40,837 bases of DNA from Alcaligenaceae bacterium (GTDB lineage: Bacteria > Pseudomonadota > Gammaproteobacteria > Burkholderiales > Burkholderiaceae_B), in the NCBI GenBank assembly GCA_947379755.1, contig CANCOC010000024.1, positions 1-40,837 of the forward strand. Direction: 5' to 3'. Position 1 is the stretch's first letter. Every line of letters starts with the position of its first letter. The position numbers were made by a program, and so were the translations under genes. The notes below the pieces were generated by a model. The model was not told the DNA's origin. It ran no database searches and saw nothing but the letters and a program-made list of their open reading frames with translations. Below, in pieces: positions 8,200 to 19,758 of this stretch.

Positions 8200-9174
8200 C
8201 TACTCGGGCTTCACACCGGCCTCTCGGGCAACTTCACCCCAGCGCTTTTGTTCGCGCGCGATGTACTGCACAAACATCGCTGTTGTCCATGGCGTGGGTA
8301 CAGCATTGTATTGGGCAAACTTATCCTTGATTTCCTGGGTCGCCAGTACCTGATTCATGGCCAGATTGATCTTGTTCACGATATCTTTTGGCGTGCCTGC
8401 AGGTGCAAGTAAACCTTGCCAGGAACTCACGTCATACCCGGGATAGCCAGATTCGATCACCGTCGGAATCGCTGGAACGAGCTTCGAACGCTGCTCACTT
8501 GTGATTGCCAGGGCGCGCACTTTGCCTGAAACCACCTGGGGGTAGATACTCGAGAAAGGGTCGAACAATACTTCGATCTGACCACCCAACAGATCTGTAA
8601 TAGCTGGAGAGCTCCCTTTGTACGGAATATGGTTCATCCTGACACCTCCCGCCAGCGTTGAAAACAACTCAACGGCCAGATGAATCGAGGTGCCAGCTGT
8701 GCCGTAATTCAGCTTGCCGGGATGCTCTTTTGCATACGTGACTAGTTCAGCAAGCGAATGTACAGGTAGTGCAGGATTGACCACAACCAGCAGAGGCTGG
8801 ACTGCAACCATCCCAAGTGGCTCGAAACTCTGATTCGGGTCGTACCCCAATTTGGCCATGGTCCACTGGTTAATTGCCAGCGTACTGATGTTACCCATCA
8901 CCCAGGTGTAGCCATCGGCTGGACTTCTTGCCGCAGCTTCTGCCCCAATTGCACCACTGGCACCCGAGCGGTTTTCACAGATCACTTGTTGCCCGAGTAC
9001 ATCACTGAGCTTGGCCGCCAGGGTACGTGCAACGATATCCGTCACCCCACCCGGAGGGAAAGGCACAATCATCCTGATCGGACGATTTGGAAAATCCTGT
9101 GCCTGTGAGACGGTCGCACAACAGAGCAACACCGTATAAATTATCGAGCGCGAGAACCTTTTGAGCAGACGCAT
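8200..9174 (-). CDS. Bug/TctC-family periplasmic solute-binding receptor (1 of 5)
   Basis: A 324-residue receptor of the tripartite tricarboxylate transporter family. It has a signal peptide ending SQA-QD, then the family opening PNRPIRMIVPFPPGGVTDIVAR. The middle ligand-loop motif (NHIPYKGSSPAITDLLGGQ) is also present. These proteins bind carboxylates, amides or aromatic acids for uptake, and many lack a dedicated membrane partner. No TctA/TctB gene is in the window. It starts 4 bp after the stop of the luciferase-like monooxygenase, and its AAGGA ribosome-binding site overlaps that gene's end. The pair is therefore coupled, and the receptor probably delivers the substrate or a relative of the compound oxidised by that enzyme. 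Ligand unknown. Confidence 0.95.
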   Translation of the reverse strand: MRLLKRFSRSIIYTVLLCCATVSQAQDFPNRPIRMIVPFPPGGVTDIVARTLAAKLSDVLGQQVICENRSGASGAIGAEAAARSPADGYTWVMGNISTLAINQWTMAKLGYDPNQSFEPLGMVAVQPLLVVVNPALPVHSLAELVTYAKEHPGKLNYGTAGTSIHLAVELFSTLAGGVRMNHIPYKGSSPAITDLLGGQIEVLFDPFSSIYPQVVSGKVRALAITSEQRSKLVPAIPTVIESGYPGYDVSSWQGLLAPAGTPKDIVNKINLAMNQVLATQEIKDKFAQYNAVPTPWTTAMFVQYIAREQKRWGEVAREAGVKPE

Positions 9175-10536: not shown

Positions 10537-11505
10537 ATGAGACTCACAACCCGCATCACTTCTGTTTTGTTACTCACTCTGTTTGCAGGCCTGGGCCTTG
10601 CCAGTGCCGCGGACTACCCTGTCCGTCCAGTAAAGTGGATCGTGCCCTATCCCCCCGGTGGAACGACTGACGTGCTTGCGCGCATCATGGCGCAACGACT
10701 CACAGAAAAAATGGGACAGACGTTCATTGTTGAAAACAAACCAGGTGGCGGTAACAATATTGGAACTGAAGCAGTGATCAATGCTGCCCCTGATGGCTAC
10801 ACCATGTTGCTCGTCAATCCGGCTCATGGCATCAATGCCTCGCTTTACAAAAACCTACCGTTCAACGTGATTCGCGATATCGCACCCGTTGCAGGCATGG
10901 TGCGTACGCCCAACGTGATGGTAGTGACCGACTCTCTGCCAGTCAAAAATGTTGCCGAATTCATTGCCTACTGCAAAGCCAATCCAGGCAAGATCAACAT
11001 GGCGTCATCTGGCAGCGGCACCTCCGTACACCTCTCCGGAGAACTGTTCAAGTACATGACGGGTTGCAACATGACGCATGTTCCTTACAAAGGAGCAGGC
11101 CCTGCGCTCAATGACCTCATCGCAGGACAAGTCCAGGTACTGTTTGATAACTTGCCTTCCTCTGCCCCGCACATCAAGGGTGGTCGCATCCGTGCACTGG
11201 CTGTGACTTCGCTCGCGCGCGAACCTTCGATGCCAAACATCCCAACCGTGGCGGATACTGTTCCAGGATATGAAGCAACCGCGTGGTTTGGAATCGGCAT
11301 GCCAAAAGGCACGCCTCGTGCAGTCATCGAAAGGGTCAATGCTGAAGTCAATCTTGCTCTGGCTGATCCAAAAATGCGCGCGCGGCTTGCAGATCTGGGA
11401 GGCGTCCCTATTCCGGGCACTCCCGAAGACTTCGGAAAAATCATGGCAGAAGAAACTGCAAAGTGGACCAAAGTGGTCGAGGCATCTGGTGCGACAGTCG
11501 ACTAA
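10537..11505 (+). CDS. Bug/TctC-family periplasmic solute-binding receptor (2 of 5)
   Basis: A 322-residue exported receptor. The signal peptide ends ASA-AD, followed by YPVRPVKWIVPYPPGGTTDVLAR. The central ligand-contact segment reads THVPYKGAGPALNDLIAGQ, and a cysteine (TGCN) sits just before it. A GAGG ribosome-binding site supports the ATG. It is transcribed divergently from the monooxygenase-Bug operon and shares the 152-bp control region, so co-regulation with that pathway is likely. Its stop codon lies 3 bp from the stop of the opposing FkbM gene, leaving no room for a terminator between them. The ligand is not predictable. Confidence 0.95.
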   Translation: MRLTTRITSVLLLTLFAGLGLASAADYPVRPVKWIVPYPPGGTTDVLARIMAQRLTEKMGQTFIVENKPGGGNNIGTEAVINAAPDGYTMLLVNPAHGINASLYKNLPFNVIRDIAPVAGMVRTPNVMVVTDSLPVKNVAEFIAYCKANPGKINMASSGSGTSVHLSGELFKYMTGCNMTHVPYKGAGPALNDLIAGQVQVLFDNLPSSAPHIKGGRIRALAVTSLAREPSMPNIPTVADTVPGYEATAWFGIGMPKGTPRAVIERVNAEVNLALADPKMRARLADLGGVPIPGTPEDFGKIMAEETAKWTKVVEASGATVD

Positions 11506-12450: not shown

Positions 12451-13047
12451 TTACAATTTGCGCTTAATTTTTAACAATGCATTTTGCGCAGCGATACTGA
12501 CTGTGCGCTCACCGGGAGTGACGTCAATCTGATCACCAGCCTTGAGCACCCCAGGCTGCAAGACGCTCAGATACCATCCACTACGTGCACTACGCACCAT
12601 CAGCGGACCCGCCTCGTCCAAACCGATTTTTGCGGTGAATTTAAAGCAGGGTTCGCGCAGGTTTTCGACCATCAGTTCAACGTCACCAATTTGCCAGAGA
12701 TCTCCAACAAAAACCTCATCCTCGACAAAACCCTCAACAGTCAGGTTTTCACCAAAGAAACCATGATCCAGGCGATCCAGGCAAGAGTCATTCTGCTTGA
12801 GCAAATCCTCCCAAAAAACATAATGCTCGACAGGATAAGCATAGACGGCTTTGTCAGGACCACCATGCACATTCAGGTCGGCCTGCGCATCACGCTCGAG
12901 CCCGAGTGGACCAGCAAAAATCGCAACAGGTTCCGCTAGCTGACTGACGGGCTGTTTATTAATCGCACTGTTGACCGTACGGCCAGGTCCGTCGCCAGAT
13001 ATTGCAAATTTTTTAATCTGTCCGGTCGATATCGTCAGGATGCGCAT
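12451..13047 (-). CDS. MOSC domain protein (YiiM-like)
   Basis: A 198-residue protein with a single MOSC domain, the fold that ends molybdenum-cofactor sulfurases and also occurs alone in YiiM/YuaD-type proteins. Diagnostic features are NVHGGPDKAVYAYPVEHY (H61 onward), FGENLTVEGF near residue 98, and the conserved cysteine C134 in NLREPCFKF, which would carry a persulfide or contact the molybdenum ligand. E. coli YiiM works in reduction of N-hydroxylated compounds, so such activity is possible here. The start is supported by GGGGAATTGA before the ATG. It lies 52 bp after the enolase-like gene and 27 bp before the FkbM gene on the same strand. Confidence 0.92.
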   Translation of the reverse strand: MRILTISTGQIKKFAISGDGPGRTVNSAINKQPVSQLAEPVAIFAGPLGLERDAQADLNVHGGPDKAVYAYPVEHYVFWEDLLKQNDSCLDRLDHGFFGENLTVEGFVEDEVFVGDLWQIGDVELMVENLREPCFKFTAKIGLDEAGPLMVRSARSGWYLSVLQPGVLKAGDQIDVTPGERTVSIAAQNALLKIKRKL

Positions 13048-13099: not shown

Positions 13100-14374
13100 T
13101 CATGCCATTCTTCGAAAACCATTGGCGAAGGGTAGTGAAGCACCAGAAGATGTTTCTATACGAATGCCTTCATTCCACTTTGCCATTCGCTCAGACCTTG
13201 CAAACGAACCGACTTTAAGTTGCCCTGCATCCCAGCCTGTTGCAAGATGCACGATCATTGTGTCTTCTGTTTCTCCTGAACGTGCAGAAACAATTGTCTT
13301 GTAACCAACAGCTTTAGCCGCATCGATGGCCGCTCGTGTTTCAGTCATCGTTCCGATCTGATTCGGCTTAATCAAAACGGTATTGCAAGCACCGCAAGCG
13401 GCTGCAGCGCGAATGCGGGTGGCATCCGTCACGAGATAATCATCGCCAACAATCTGAATCCTGTGACCGGCTTCGCGCGTGAAATCAATCAGGCCTTGCT
13501 CATCGCTTTCACTCAGAGGGTCCTCAATTGATACGATCGGATACTGCTCGATCCAGCGCATGAGTAGCTCTGCAAAACCATTTGAATCCAGGCTCCGGTT
13601 GTCTAGTGCCAAACGGTATTTGCCATCAGCAAAGAACTCAGAAGCAGCAATATCCAGCGCAATGCCCACATCCAATCCTGGCGTATAGCCTGCTGCTTCG
13701 ATGGCAGCCACAAGCGTATCAAGAGCCTGTTCATTTTTAGAAAATGCCGGCCACCACCCCCCCTCGTCGGCCACGCCCATCAAGGTTCCCTTTCTTTGCA
13801 TGAGCAGACCTGCGTGCCGGTAGACCTCAGCAGTCATCTCCAGAGACTGCTCAAACGAGGTTGCCCCAATCGCGATCACCATGAAATCCTGCACATCGAC
13901 ACGCCGTCCTGCGTGGGCACCACCTCCAAAAATTTGAATCTGGGGCATCGGCAGGCTGGCTGCAGCATCACCCGCCAGGTAACGCCAGAGTGGTTTGCAG
14001 GCACTGTTCGCCGCAGCATTCAGCACCGCCATCGAAGTCGCGACAATTGCATTGGCGCCCAGTCGCGATTTATTGGGCGTACCATCCAGCTCAATCAGCC
14101 TCTGATCCACTGCAGCCTGCTCACGGGCATCCATTCCAAGAAGAGCAGGAGCAATTTCATGCCTGAGCCCCTGTAGCGCCTGCTGGACATCCTTTCCACC
14201 AAACGCCTCGCCTGCGTCACGCAATTCAAGTGCTTCGTGCTGTCCCCTTGAGGCGCCAGCCGGCGCAATACCGCGCCCAATGGTGCCGTCTTCGAGCGCA
14301 AGTTCCACCTCCACCGTCGGAATGCCGCGCGAATCCCAAATCCTGCGTGCAACGATACTTTGAATCTGACTCAT
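13100..14374 (-). CDS. Divergent enolase paralogue (altered active site)
   Basis: A 424-residue full-length enolase-fold protein that aligns without large gaps to classical enolase. The magnesium ligands D241, E284 and D311, loop serine S42, catalytic E204 (in ADEGG), K336 (LIKPNQIG) and K387, H154, and the phosphate-binding R365-S366 are all kept. Several usually invariant positions differ. D163 replaces Glu (yeast E168), A364 replaces His (yeast H373, in VSARSGETED), and A39-G-A-S-R43 replaces SGAST in the mobile loop; N of DSRGNPTVE is I18 and NGG becomes GGG. The changes cluster on the hydroxyl side and in the lid, while phosphate and carboxylate binding look intact. I infer an enolase-like reaction on a different phosphorylated acid. 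The ATG overlaps the stop of the upstream kinase gene (ATGA). It is unlikely to be the housekeeping eno. Confidence 0.9.
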   Translation of the reverse strand: MSQIQSIVARRIWDSRGIPTVEVELALEDGTIGRGIAPAGASRGQHEALELRDAGEAFGGKDVQQALQGLRHEIAPALLGMDAREQAAVDQRLIELDGTPNKSRLGANAIVATSMAVLNAAANSACKPLWRYLAGDAAASLPMPQIQIFGGGAHAGRRVDVQDFMVIAIGATSFEQSLEMTAEVYRHAGLLMQRKGTLMGVADEGGWWPAFSKNEQALDTLVAAIEAAGYTPGLDVGIALDIAASEFFADGKYRLALDNRSLDSNGFAELLMRWIEQYPIVSIEDPLSESDEQGLIDFTREAGHRIQIVGDDYLVTDATRIRAAAACGACNTVLIKPNQIGTMTETRAAIDAAKAVGYKTIVSARSGETEDTMIVHLATGWDAGQLKVGSFARSERMAKWNEGIRIETSSGASLPFANGFRRMA

Positions 14375-15402
14375 TGATTGATTTCCCTATACCAGAATGA
14401 TTGAATGAGGCTCACTGTATTGAACTGCGCATCCAGCAACTGCTCAGCGAATTGACGCACCCTCTCACGCTGAGCATCGTTTAAATATTCGACAGGTGAC
14501 TTTCCATCTACACGTGCAAGCAGCAAGGCAGGCAGCAGCTGGGCAACACGACACTCCAGAGCCTGCCTGGGCTCCCAGCCTACAAATGCAAAGTAATGGG
14601 TACAAAAAAATGAGAACGCTCGGGATAAACTGGCTGCCGCCTGAGGCACGACCACGGCTTTGAGCAAAAGATGATTCAATAAAAAAGCCACATCAAAAGC
14701 AGGATCGCCATAACAGGCACACTCCGCATCGAGAATGATCAGACCCTTGCTGCCAGTCAGGATGTTTTTTGGACTGATATCACCATGCACGAGTGCATGT
14801 TTATGTTGAATAAAACTGTCAACCAGGCTTTGAAAAAAATATCTGCGCTCAGGATGCTGACGCCCTGTTTCGAGCAAGTAAGCATCCAGACGAATCGCCA
14901 TGAAGTTCTGGTCGTTCAATGCAGTGTCAAACGTGTCAACGATGTGCGAATTGCCTGCCGTTTCGTTATGAATGAGACTCAGAACGTGCCCCAGTTGTGC
15001 AGCAACCTCTGTATCGACCCGGCCCAGGAGTAATAGGTCTTTCCAGCACATATTTTGCTCAGGAGGAAAAAACTCCATCAGAAATGATCCTGACTGCTTG
15101 TCGACCCCAAGGATATCTGGCACATGTTCAGGCACAATTTGTGCTGCCGCTTCAAGCCAGGCAATCTCAGCAAAGACCCGTTCAATCGGCGCGTGCCACT
15201 CCTTGGCTACTTTTAATGTCGGAAGTGCCTGCTTAAGACAAAATATTTCTTTACCCGTCTCGATTCTCATGATGTTGGAAGACACACCACCTTTGAGCAT
15301 CTGGATGGCGGGTGTCACCCCCGCCTCGAGCTTGCCTAAACGGCCCAGCATCTTGACCAGTGCCTGCTGATCACTGGCCAAATCAATAAACTGCACAGCC
15401 AT
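14371..15402 (-). CDS. APH-fold small-molecule kinase, methylthioribose-kinase-like
   Basis: A 343-residue aminoglycoside-phosphotransferase-fold kinase. K57 in FCLKQAL matches the ATP-binding lysine. H207-G-D209-ISPKN213 holds the catalytic Asp and a metal-binding Asn, and LDAECACYGDP (D225, E227) replaces the DFG-type metal loop. The pattern around CACYGDPAFDVAFLLNHLLLK resembles 5-methylthioribose kinase and homoserine-kinase-like families rather than antibiotic-resistance enzymes. No resistance role is suggested. A GGAGA ribosome-binding site supports the ATG. It is the first gene of the minus-strand run, and its TGA overlaps the enolase-like ATG, so the two proteins are made together. 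The simplest reading is that it phosphorylates the compound on which the enolase paralogue acts. Substrate unknown. Confidence 0.9.
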   Translation of the reverse strand: MAVQFIDLASDQQALVKMLGRLGKLEAGVTPAIQMLKGGVSSNIMRIETGKEIFCLKQALPTLKVAKEWHAPIERVFAEIAWLEAAAQIVPEHVPDILGVDKQSGSFLMEFFPPEQNMCWKDLLLLGRVDTEVAAQLGHVLSLIHNETAGNSHIVDTFDTALNDQNFMAIRLDAYLLETGRQHPERRYFFQSLVDSFIQHKHALVHGDISPKNILTGSKGLIILDAECACYGDPAFDVAFLLNHLLLKAVVVPQAAASLSRAFSFFCTHYFAFVGWEPRQALECRVAQLLPALLLARVDGKSPVEYLNDAQRERVRQFAEQLLDAQFNTVSLIQSFWYREINQ

Positions 15403-15525
15403 ACTTGTCTCCAGCTTTTTTTCAGGTCTTATTTTCAGATCATCATATCGCCTATTTTTGAACGCCTCACGTCGAGATGGATGTATTCTTTCGAAACTTA
15501 TAAAAATATCAATCAGGATTGAATA

Positions 15526-16503: not shown

Positions 16504-16578
16504 AAAATATGTGGCCTCAGGTGACGCATGCAGGGCAGCTCACCTGTCGAGCAGTTCAGTCAAAGAATGGATGATCAA

Positions 16579-17574
16579 GTGAAAAATTTCAGGCAACTCA
16601 TCGCGACAGGTACTATCGTCTTATCGGCACTCTCAGCGCTGAGCGCCGCACAGAGCGCCCTGGCCCAACCTGCTGCATACCCGAATAAGCCAATCAGATT
16701 CCTCGTGGGTTTTGCGCCGGCCGGTGCTGCAGATTATGTGGCACGCGTGATCAGTGAGCCTCTGGCCAAAGCGCTCGGGCAACCTGTCATCGTAGAAAAT
16801 CGCGCAGGTGCGGGCTCAAGCATTGCCGCAGATCTCGCAGCAAAAGCACCCGCAGATGGCTACACAATTCTATTGGCGAGCCCCAGCAGCATTTCCGTGA
16901 ACCCCGCGCTCAATCCAAAACTGAATTATTCAGCGCGCGACCTCGCCCCCGTCAGCAAGGTGACCTCCTCACCATTGGTCATCGCCGTCAATACATCGAC
17001 AGGCATCCAGTCCATTCAGGATTTAATCCGACAAGCTCAGGCATCTCCAGGAAAATTGAATTTTGCGACGTCTGGCAATGGTTCAGCGCCCCATCTTGCT
17101 GCTGCCTTATTTATGCAAACGGCGGGTGTGGACATGATGCACATTCCCTTCAAGGGTGGCAGTCTGGCGATTCAGTCTGTTGTTTCTGGTGATACACAAT
17201 TGACTTTTGGTACCCCACCCTCAGTGCTGCCCATGGTTCAGGCTGGTCGTCTCAAGGCAATTGGTGTCAGCTGGCAAAACAGTACCGACCTGGTGCCCGG
17301 GGTACCAGGCATGAAAGAAGCGGGACTCCCCGATTACAGCCTGGATTTTTGGTATGGGATTTTTGTTCCTGCAGGCACGCCACCAGACATCATTCAGAAG
17401 CTGTATCAGGCAATACAAACAGCCATGTCATTGCCTGGCGTCAAAACTGCTTTGGCACGCGAAGGCACGGATGTTTCATTATCCGCATCCCCCGCAGCCT
17501 TTGCTGAGTTTCTCGTACAGGATGAAAAATTCTGGGTCAAACTCGTAAAAGATGCCCAGGTCAAGATCGACTAG
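16579..17574 (+). CDS. Bug/TctC-family periplasmic solute-binding receptor (3 of 5)
   Basis: An exported receptor of about 331 residues. I prefer the GTG at 16579, with GGATGA upstream, because it gives a standard signal peptide (KNFRQ n-region, alanine/leucine core, ALAQ cleavage). ATGs at 16528 and 16567 in the same frame would only lengthen the n-region. The mature part opens YPNKPIRFLVGFAPAGAADYVAR. The usual PGG is changed to PAG, so the ligand-carboxylate loop differs from the other four Bugs here. MMHIPFKGGSLAIQSVV is the central loop. It follows the MDR reductase gene on the same strand. Its TAG stop overlaps the stop of the opposing catalase gene in one CTAG. Confidence 0.93.
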   Translation: MKNFRQLIATGTIVLSALSALSAAQSALAQPAAYPNKPIRFLVGFAPAGAADYVARVISEPLAKALGQPVIVENRAGAGSSIAADLAAKAPADGYTILLASPSSISVNPALNPKLNYSARDLAPVSKVTSSPLVIAVNTSTGIQSIQDLIRQAQASPGKLNFATSGNGSAPHLAAALFMQTAGVDMMHIPFKGGSLAIQSVVSGDTQLTFGTPPSVLPMVQAGRLKAIGVSWQNSTDLVPGVPGMKEAGLPDYSLDFWYGIFVPAGTPPDIIQKLYQAIQTAMSLPGVKTALAREGTDVSLSASPAAFAEFLVQDEKFWVKLVKDAQVKID

Positions 17575-18771: not shown

Positions 18772-19758
18772 ATGATGCGATTTGACGTTCTGCACCGCAA
18801 GGTGCTGCGACCAGTCTTTTTAATTCTATGCATGAGTGCGAGCTTTTTGGCCTGTGCAGAATTCCCCGATAAAGCAATCAAAATTGTCGTGCCCTATCCC
18901 CCGGGCGGATCCACAGACATCATCGCACGTGCCGTAGGCCAAAAGATGGCTGAATCACTTGGTACGCAAGTGCTGATCGAGACCAAGGCGGGTGCATCAG
19001 GAATGATTGGTGCCAGTGCCGTTGCCCGCAGCCCTGCTGATGGTTATACCTTGCTGATGACAGGCAGCGGTCCCCACTCAATCAATATCAGCTTATTCAA
19101 AGAAATCCCCTACGATCCGATCAAAGATTTTGATCCAATCATTCTTGTCGCCATCTATCCACTTCTCATGGTGGTCAATGCAGACCATCCTGCGAAAACT
19201 GTCAAAGAATTTATCGAATGGGCAAGGACGAATAAGGGACAGGTCAACTTTTGTTCGATCGGACCTGGTACGCCATCGCACCTTGCTGGCGAGTTGTTCC
19301 AATCGACTGCAGGTATAGAAATGACACATATTCCCTATAAAGGAAGCTCGCAAGCGATCGCCGACATCATTGGTGGGCACTGCTCCGTCCTGTTCGACAG
19401 CGCGCTGTCGTCTGGACCTCAGGTCAAAGGTGGAAAGTTACGCGCCCTGGGGATTGGCTCAAAGGAACGTATCGCAGCCTGGCCTGAGGTCCCCACTATT
19501 TCGGAATCCGGGCTCAAGGGCTACGAGGCTTACACCTGGGGGGCATTGCTTGCTCCTGCAGGCGTACCAAAAGATATTCTGATCAAGCTCCACAAGGCTG
19601 CAGCGCAAGCCGTGTCTTCAGCCTCCTTTGTGGAGATGCTTGAGGCGCAAGGCGGTGTACCAGGAGGCGGAACACCCGAAGAAATGATGTCCTTCACCAA
19701 ATCCGAAATTCAGAAATGGGGCAAGGTGATCCGTAATGGAAATATCAAATCCGAATAA
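18772..19758 (+). CDS. Bug/TctC-family periplasmic solute-binding receptor (4 of 5)
   Basis: A 328-residue exported receptor. Two adjacent ATG codons follow a good GGAGA ribosome-binding site, and either may start. The signal peptide has a long hydrophobic core and ends with LACAE; the cysteine there resembles a lipobox only loosely, and a type I site is more likely. The mature part opens FPDKAIKIVVPYPPGGSTDIIAR, and the central loop is THIPYKGSSQAIADIIGGH, very like the Bug at 8200. The gene is divergent from the mini-catalase and ends 4 bp short of the opposing SbmA-like gene. No membrane partner genes are present. Confidence 0.95.
   Translation: MMRFDVLHRKVLRPVFLILCMSASFLACAEFPDKAIKIVVPYPPGGSTDIIARAVGQKMAESLGTQVLIETKAGASGMIGASAVARSPADGYTLLMTGSGPHSINISLFKEIPYDPIKDFDPIILVAIYPLLMVVNADHPAKTVKEFIEWARTNKGQVNFCSIGPGTPSHLAGELFQSTAGIEMTHIPYKGSSQAIADIIGGHCSVLFDSALSSGPQVKGGKLRALGIGSKERIAAWPEVPTISESGLKGYEAYTWGALLAPAGVPKDILIKLHKAAAQAVSSASFVEMLEAQGGVPGGGTPEEMMSFTKSEIQKWGKVIRNGNIKSE

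Follow-up and report, generated by a model that had tools for sequence, protein, structure and literature searches.

A kinase gene overlapping an altered enolase gene: a possible phosphorylate-then-eliminate module for a glycerate-type acid

The 40,837-nt stretch analysed here (the window; contig CANCOC010000024.1 of the Alcaligenaceae bacterium assembly GCA_947379755.1) carries a gene for an APH-family kinase, KIN, followed by one for an enolase paralogue, ENO*. The pair is widespread in many soil and water bacteria beside the ordinary enolase and is probably used for the breakdown of a glycerate-like acid. The reading that we put first, and hold with about even confidence, is that KIN and ENO* would form a catabolic module that first phosphorylates and then eliminates, acting on a glycerate-type acid distinct from D-glycerate; this estimate includes, as special cases, L-glycerate and a leaving group other than hydroxide. 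Both genes lie on the minus strand and overlap by 4 bp, as a preliminary description of this DNA had it:

14371-15402, minus strand: KIN, APH-family small-molecule kinase, 343 amino acids (PF01636; catalytic motif HGDxSPKN)
13100-14374, minus strand: ENO*, enolase paralogue, 424 amino acids (TIGR01060 profile and active-site residues)
14371-14374, minus strand: ATGA, the 4-bp overlap of kinase stop and enolase start (from the sequence)

In the proposed module, other enzymes would supply the acid by reducing a 2-oxo acid or by hydrolytically cleaving a diketo sugar acid. KIN would phosphorylate a glycerate-type 2,3-dihydroxy acid, or an analogue that bears a different group at C3, on its 2-hydroxyl, and ENO*, judging from the residues that it retains, would bind the 2-phosphate and the carboxylate with two metals. 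K336 would then take the C2 proton and the C3 group would be expelled, giving phosphoenolpyruvate (PEP) or a substituted PEP. Candidate substrates are a C3-substituted (2R)-glycerate, L-glycerate and a 3-substituted lactate. We expect the substrate to differ from D-2-phosphoglycerate because the pocket is remodelled (E168D, H373A, A215W and two lid arginines, in yeast numbering) and the normal enzymes leading from D-glycerate to PEP are present as well.

Active site and clade of the enolase paralogue

Residues were compared between 103 distinct paralogues (L142 and L143 included, L136 left out) and 22 ordinary enolases. ENO* keeps H154, E204, D241, E284, D311, K336, R365, S366 and K387, which we take, from motifs, to be yeast H159, E211, D246, E295, D320, K345, R374, S375 and K396; all nine are unchanged in 103/103 paralogues. 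Enolase's three metal ligands, K345, E211, K396 and R374-S375 are thus present throughout, and the observation that ENO* keeps the metal ligands, E204/K336 and R365-S366 extends to the whole group. Five other positions separate the two sets completely: E168D, H373A, A215W, N152Q and N155G occur in 103/103 paralogues (D163, A364, W208, Q147 and G150 in the window), against E, H, A, N and N in 22/22 ordinary enolases. The changes noticed earlier at E168 and H373 are therefore invariant features of the paralogues. One of the six search peptides used to collect 80 of the loci (see below) carried D at the E168 position. A tblastn search that used no such patterns found 18 plasmid records at 58% identity or more among those listed; the 12 of these that were fetched all belong to the 103 and have the diagnostic residues. 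The conversion of the SGAST loop to AGASR is only half a hallmark. The S to A change marks the clade (S36 position: 100 A, 2 S, 1 gap), whereas the final R is not diagnostic because the T40 position is variable (R 53, T 41, K 5, M 2, C 1, gap 1). Arginines occupy lid position 162 in 97/103 and position 163 in 102/103 paralogues.

In yeast enolase, E168, E211 and H373 jointly hold the leaving water. Of this, a 1996 title by Poyner cited in PMC4450660 confirms only that E168 and E211 have been investigated as candidate acid/base residues. With the catalytic and phosphate-binding residues retained and E168 and H373 replaced, proton abstraction and phosphate binding appear to be kept, so that it would be the C3-facing side of the pocket that has been rebuilt in ENO*.

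Trees were drawn from 126 distinct sequences together with loci fetched later. In a maximum-likelihood tree of 84 rows, 43 paralogues fell on one side of a branch with a Shimodaira-Hasegawa-like approximate likelihood-ratio support of 100, and in a careful maximum-likelihood run of 71 rows 40 paralogues split off at 100/100, in 100% of 200 bootstrap trees. ENO* itself is about 45-50% identical to ordinary enolases and falls outside their clade (branch 100/100). The suggestion that the enolase of the pair forms a clade of its own was thus borne out, with separation from ordinary enolases at 100/100 in trees of paralogues and ordinary enolases. The Persicobacter row is a long branch whose exact position is unsure; it has the diagnostic residues in common with the clade.

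L136:7779-8984 (G045:C42:35808-36953) holds a third enolase-type gene, a decayed relative (34% identity) of the altered enolase. In this copy DEGG is gone, as are the base lysine and the phosphate residues, and its genome also holds an altered and an ordinary enolase. The existence of such a relative is what speaks for ENO* being a decaying or moonlighting copy with no catalytic role, which we regard as hardly credible given nine active-site positions unchanged in 103/103 paralogues and the coupling to an intact kinase. Separately, two near-identical ordinary enolase genes lie about 2.6 kb apart at L138 (G055:C1:1430794-1435828), in the window's order.

Pairing of the kinase with the paralogue

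KIN matches the Pfam profile APH (PF01636) at 6.7e-15; at E 0.01 the only Pfam families found were PF01636, PF03881 and PF01633, and the nearest solved chains are 2pyw and 2olc. K57, E79, the HGDxSPKN motif, D225, E227, G232, P234 and D237 are invariant in 26/26 aligned pair kinases, including H206-G207-D208 and D225 of KIN, and the kinase active site looks intact from this alignment.

A scan of named bacterial genomes contributed the best 80 of 569 confirmed loci, at 59-74% identity, and 107 paralogue loci were gathered in total, 102 of them distinct by sequence. For the pairing count stop-to-stop frames were used, and the paralogue was found at every locus. A KIN gene is present within the stretch examined in 102/107 loci, so that the pairing proposed for the window is near-constant; in 85 it is the same-strand gene directly upstream, no more than 300 nt away. 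Missing sequence can account for the five loci lacking it: L009 and L065 start 35 nt or less from a contig edge, L080 and L081 have less than 3.6 kb of upstream sequence, and at L045 the kinase and the paralogue share a contig but lie about 9 kb apart. In Streptomyces, Rhizobium, Pararhizobium and Cupriavidus loci with both genes, the kinase sits 4-7 kb off on the opposite strand. A gap of -3, that is the 4-bp overlap, recurs in 26/71 gap rows (a few duplicate contigs among them), and in the window the ATGA overlap would allow translational coupling of KIN and ENO*. The open-frame picking used in this gap comparison passed over the paralogue at 19 loci on account of GC-rich overlaps. The association and the recurring overlap are far beyond chance. 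Kinase and enolase distance matrices correlate (95 pairs, r 0.84; 0/2000 permutations as high) in a test without correction for host relatedness, the loci being related and the counts not independent events.

The clade was seen in Pseudomonadota, in Streptomyces and on one Bacteroidota plasmid. Among the 60 plasmid records listed (of 331), 18 reach at least 58% identity and the remainder 50.4% at most; the Persicobacter plasmid protein, at 50.4%, is a group member by residues and tree, and a kinase gene adjoins it. Closer to the window the pair is patchily distributed: the kinase was detected at E <1e-40 in 3/143 genomes of the class and a long paralogue match in 11/32 genomes of the genus, own genome included in both counts, with fragments in two more of the genus. 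ENO* is 66-72% identical to the paralogues of its genus mates and 71.5% identical to a Ramlibacter one, while the ordinary enolase shares 97% identity with its counterpart in a genus mate, a difference that points to horizontal acquisition.

Gene neighbourhood and the nature of the acid

The preliminary description had named the absence of any other eno as a possible refutation. An ordinary enolase is encoded on another contig of the same genome (48% identity to ENO*), flanked by a KDO-8-phosphate-synthase-like gene and a short FtsB-like gene (named by eye). The same holds elsewhere: ordinary eno occurs in 23/23 other pair-bearing genomes, as a single open frame in 22 of them and split over two frames in G082. 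The latter case (L181, G082:C141:188300-189900), in which the pieces were viewed separately, is perhaps an assembly slip. A class I glycerate kinase was found in 29/32 genus genomes, own included, and a class I or II kinase in 22/23 other pair-bearing genomes; no class II kinase was found in the 32 genus genomes. Two of the three genus genomes without class I (G007 and G009) bear the pair and are incomplete. Replacement of a missing glycerate kinase was therefore mostly rejected as the role of the pair. Because ordinary eno and a known D-glycerate kinase are nearly always present, plain D-glycerate is not the likeliest substrate; such redundancy is compatible with a dedicated isozyme pair.

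Neighbours were tallied from 96 proteins hand-picked from 162 operon members and some others, and from a second sample of 84 out of 224 candidates. The commonest family in the hand-picked set is the D-isomer-specific 2-hydroxyacid dehydrogenase (23/96). Densities near the pair were compared with those further out by means of seeds taken mostly from the pair's own neighbours, so that the far counts may miss other subfamilies. On this basis a 2-hydroxyacid dehydrogenase lies within 2.5 kb in 39/102 distinct loci (8.5 per 100 kb, against 0.4 at greater distance) and a ketopantoate-reductase family member is near in 13/102 (2.6 against 0.7); one or the other was seen within 2.5 kb in 52/102. Since such dehydrogenases and reductases lie near the pair, the step before the kinase is thus often the reduction of a 2-oxo acid. 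These proteins match four dehydrogenase seeds (best matches at 3, 19, 16 and 1 loci) and two reductase seeds. As the other dehydrogenase groups are 29-35% identical to the first, the link to a dehydrogenase was probably gained or exchanged on more than one occasion. Among the solved relatives of three neighbour dehydrogenases are glyoxylate/hydroxypyruvate reductases and glycerate and phosphoglycerate dehydrogenases.

A second type of supply is suggested by sugar-acid clusters. Upstream of the pair in the Sinorhizobium plasmid locus L093 are genes for sugar ABC transport, for an SDR and for a mannonate-dehydratase-like protein (148 bits, cut-off 191), together with two whose products look by eye SMP-30-like and aldose-epimerase-like and for which NCBIfam gave no family. 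The pair is followed, with another 4-bp overlap, by an FAH-family protein (368 bits against 2,4-didehydro-3-deoxy-L-rhamnonate hydrolase, cut-off 500) and then an SDR. Cucumibacter L076 has a similar set (mannonate-dehydratase-like, 148 bits, cut-off 191; FAH hydrolase match, 398 bits, cut-off 500) and alpha-mannosidase-like genes (by eye), and FAH and SDR genes lie downstream in Paracoccus L091 and Roseibium L092. FAH hydrolases of this kind act on a 2,4-diketo-3-deoxy sugar acid, from which they release pyruvate and a 2-hydroxy acid. In clusters of the L093/L076 type the acid released should be glycerate or a 3-substituted lactate, because lactate or glycolate would offer the enolase nothing to eliminate; among the acids that such a hydrolase releases from common sugars, only glycerate would have an expellable C3 group. 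That the neighbours make or release 2-hydroxy acids agrees with the hydroxy-acid context first proposed for the pair. FAH is nevertheless not a general close partner (1.8 near against 2.9 far per 100 kb); it sits further off in large clusters.

These clusters are also what favours L-glycerate as the substrate, a special case that we consider unlikely. The hydrolase found with the pair in L093 and L076 is closest to the L-rhamnonate type, a title cited in PMC13406643 has L-galactose broken down to lactate and glycerate, and L-glycerate would entail no redundancy with the D-enzymes. However, the commonest partners of the pair are D-isomer-specific dehydrogenases, which are expected to yield the D form; they fit a (2R) acid and therefore speak against L-glycerate, and the alpha-mannosidase-like genes of L076 would suggest a D-sugar. 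According to excerpts of PMC12275187 and PMC13228409, 2-phospho-L-glycerate can be used as a reagent; the latter indicates that the D and L forms of 2-phosphoglycerate are both commercially available.

In Streptomyces, Paraburkholderia, Cupriavidus and Rhizobium an HpaD-type ring-cleavage dioxygenase (TIGR02295, best E 6.6e-89) accompanies the paralogue. These aromatic-type clusters, in which the kinase sits with the 2-hydroxyacid dehydrogenase, also encode a zinc alcohol dehydrogenase, FAH proteins and a member of the carboxymuconolactone-decarboxylase family, and several of them a cupin. A PEP carboxylase gene (ppc) lies 6.7-15.1 kb from the paralogue in 4/6 plasmid records and adjoins dehydrogenase and kinase in Rhizobium, which suggests PEP as the product. 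As a general partner PEP carboxylase was rejected, since kinase and ppc are on different contigs in 16/16 other genomes with both. Just past ppc in Pararhizobium (L150:8076-11535) there is a gallate-degradation-like set, by eye a tautomerase, an aldolase, a ring-cleavage dioxygenase and a hydratase.

The other special case, a leaving group that is not hydroxide, seems to us quite improbable. KIN would phosphorylate a 3-substituted lactate such as 3-sulfolactate, and ENO*, rid of the residues that hold the acid and equipped with lid arginines, would expel the substituent, for example sulfite, to give PEP; this would amount to an ATP-primed breakage of a C-S or similar bond in the enolase fold. 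The lid arginine at position 163 (102/103), the D-type 2-oxoacid reductases, the hexose-type clusters, PEP carboxylase and the lack of redundancy with the D-glycerate enzymes would fit. A TauE/SafE exporter gene was found by similarity slightly downstream of ENO* in six loci, all Ramlibacter (L003, L004, L006, L008, L009 and L015), and in 2/84 sampled neighbours, the sample containing two of these six loci. Sulfite release from sulfolactate was dropped as the leading reading because TauE/SafE is too rare near the pair.

Instead of acting as a lyase in vivo, ENO* might divert the enolate to a different reaction, in the manner proposed for CPEP synthase; we judge this very improbable. That precedent and the change on the leaving-group side of the pocket argue for it. 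Against it, the proton-abstracting and acid residues are intact, and no phosphonate family appears among the 25 top families shown for each neighbour tally (of 52 and 85 in total).

There remains D-glycerate itself. KIN would be a new class of D-glycerate 2-kinase and ENO* would convert D-2-phosphoglycerate to PEP, both within a separately regulated catabolic set. We find this doubtful. In its favour, the solved relatives of the neighbour dehydrogenases include glycerate and hydroxypyruvate/glyoxylate reductases, these dehydrogenases favour the (2R) acid, ppc stands in four plasmid clusters, and all catalytic residues are kept. What argues the other way is that a class I or II kinase is already present in the window's own genome, in 28/31 genus mates and in 22/23 other genomes, as is ordinary eno, and that the two residues that hold the leaving hydroxyl in yeast enolase are replaced in 103/103 paralogues. 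Several further observations weigh against a module for another acid, and the first two count directly for D-glycerate. ENO* scores well above the TIGR01060 enolase cut-off (489 bits, cut-off 300). Neither a class I nor a class II glycerate kinase was found in Cucumibacter G076 or seen in the pair-bearing but incomplete G007 (83% complete) and G009 (76%). In addition, 50/102 distinct loci, the window included, have no dehydrogenase or ketopantoate-type reductase near; the ppc linkage was seen only on Rhizobium, Pararhizobium and Cupriavidus plasmids; and no one substrate suits every context, a C3 product being favoured by ppc and by the clusters of hexose type.

Taken together, the clade, the separate normal eno, the pairing and the neighbours support in part the earlier proposal that the kinase phosphorylates a hydroxy acid and the paralogue eliminates from or rearranges it; the substrate, a rearrangement and a product other than PEP stay conjectural.

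The pair is bordered in the window by the following features:

15403-15525, no strand: 123-bp gap between a divergent zinc-dehydrogenase-like gene and the kinase, likely promoter site of the pair
12451-13047, minus strand: MOSC-domain gene, 52 bp downstream of ENO* and co-directional

A search of the 123-bp gap for a sigma-70-like promoter gave one weak match, not above chance. Among the loci compared, no genome but the window's own showed the cluster of the MOSC gene. Four TctC-like receptor genes (by eye) lie within 12 kb in the window, at 8200-9174, 10537-11505, 16528-17574 and 18772-19758; TctC receptors are not enriched near the pair (1.8 near, 1.9 far per 100 kb) and were rejected as a partner. 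Upstream of the kinase, loci of the window's genus encode a PrdB-like protein (81 bits against the D-proline reductase model, cut-off 300; CPVC motif by eye) at L130:5667-6683, L012:5813-6829, L020:6034-8004 and L129:5493-7574; in L020, which also appears as L131, and in L129 it is fused to the kinase in a single open frame. No PrdB-like gene adjoins the pair in the window, and the protein was set aside as a general partner, since its 11 rows all belong to the window's genus group or are same-contig copies. PhyH-type dioxygenase genes occur near the pair at L085:5249-6157, L133:5820-6803 and L134:16345-17001 (the third by eye); the family accounts for 3/84 sampled neighbours.

Comparison with known systems

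Few enzymes of central metabolism are as conserved as enolase, and CPEP synthase is a homologue that took on a new task in phosphinothricin biosynthesis. Here a whole clade in which two leaving-group residues are always replaced, and which is tied to its own kinase, carries the annotation phosphopyruvate hydratase: paralogues are so named where records carry names, and, being above the TIGR01060 cut-off, ENO* would receive the same name automatically. If the proposed module is real, hydroxy acids would be dehydrated along a phosphorylative route, the kinases for them would include a further class, and the annotation would be consistently wrong. Being small, the pair lends itself to direct tests in vitro. 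None of the titles and abstract openings that came up in our searches of the open-licence literature describes it.

ENO* shares with enolase (TIGR01060, EC 4.2.1.11) the fold family, the length, the metal ligands, K345, E211, H159, R374-S375 and K396. It differs in E168D, H373A, A215W, N152Q and N155G, in its separate clade and in having its own kinase. Because it has neither E168 nor H373 and lies outside the ordinary clade, we file it as an enolase-family paralogue and not as a functional enolase.

KIN is a member of the APH-fold kinases by its PF01636 match and intact HGD and D motifs. Of the APH small-molecule kinases, its nearest NCBIfam profile is S-methyl-5-thioribose kinase (TIGR01767), yet KIN scores 71.5 bits against it, well short of the cut-off of 275. 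With class I and II glycerate kinases (PF02595; MOFRL, PF05161) it would share the 2-phosphorylation of a glycerate-type acid; it differs from them in its APH fold, with no PF02595 or PF05161 match. In 2007 three unrelated classes of glycerate kinase were recognised (PMC2063504), and an APH-fold glycerate-type kinase would be a further one.

The closest metabolic parallel is the non-phosphorylative pathway for L-fucose, L-rhamnose and L-galactose, whose dehydration, oxidation and hydrolysis steps have counterparts among the proteins carried with the pair in L093 and L076. The routes described in the excerpt of PMC13406643 end in L-lactate (as for L-fucose), in glycolate, or in glycerate from L-galactose, whereas in L093 and L076 a kinase and an enolase relative come after.

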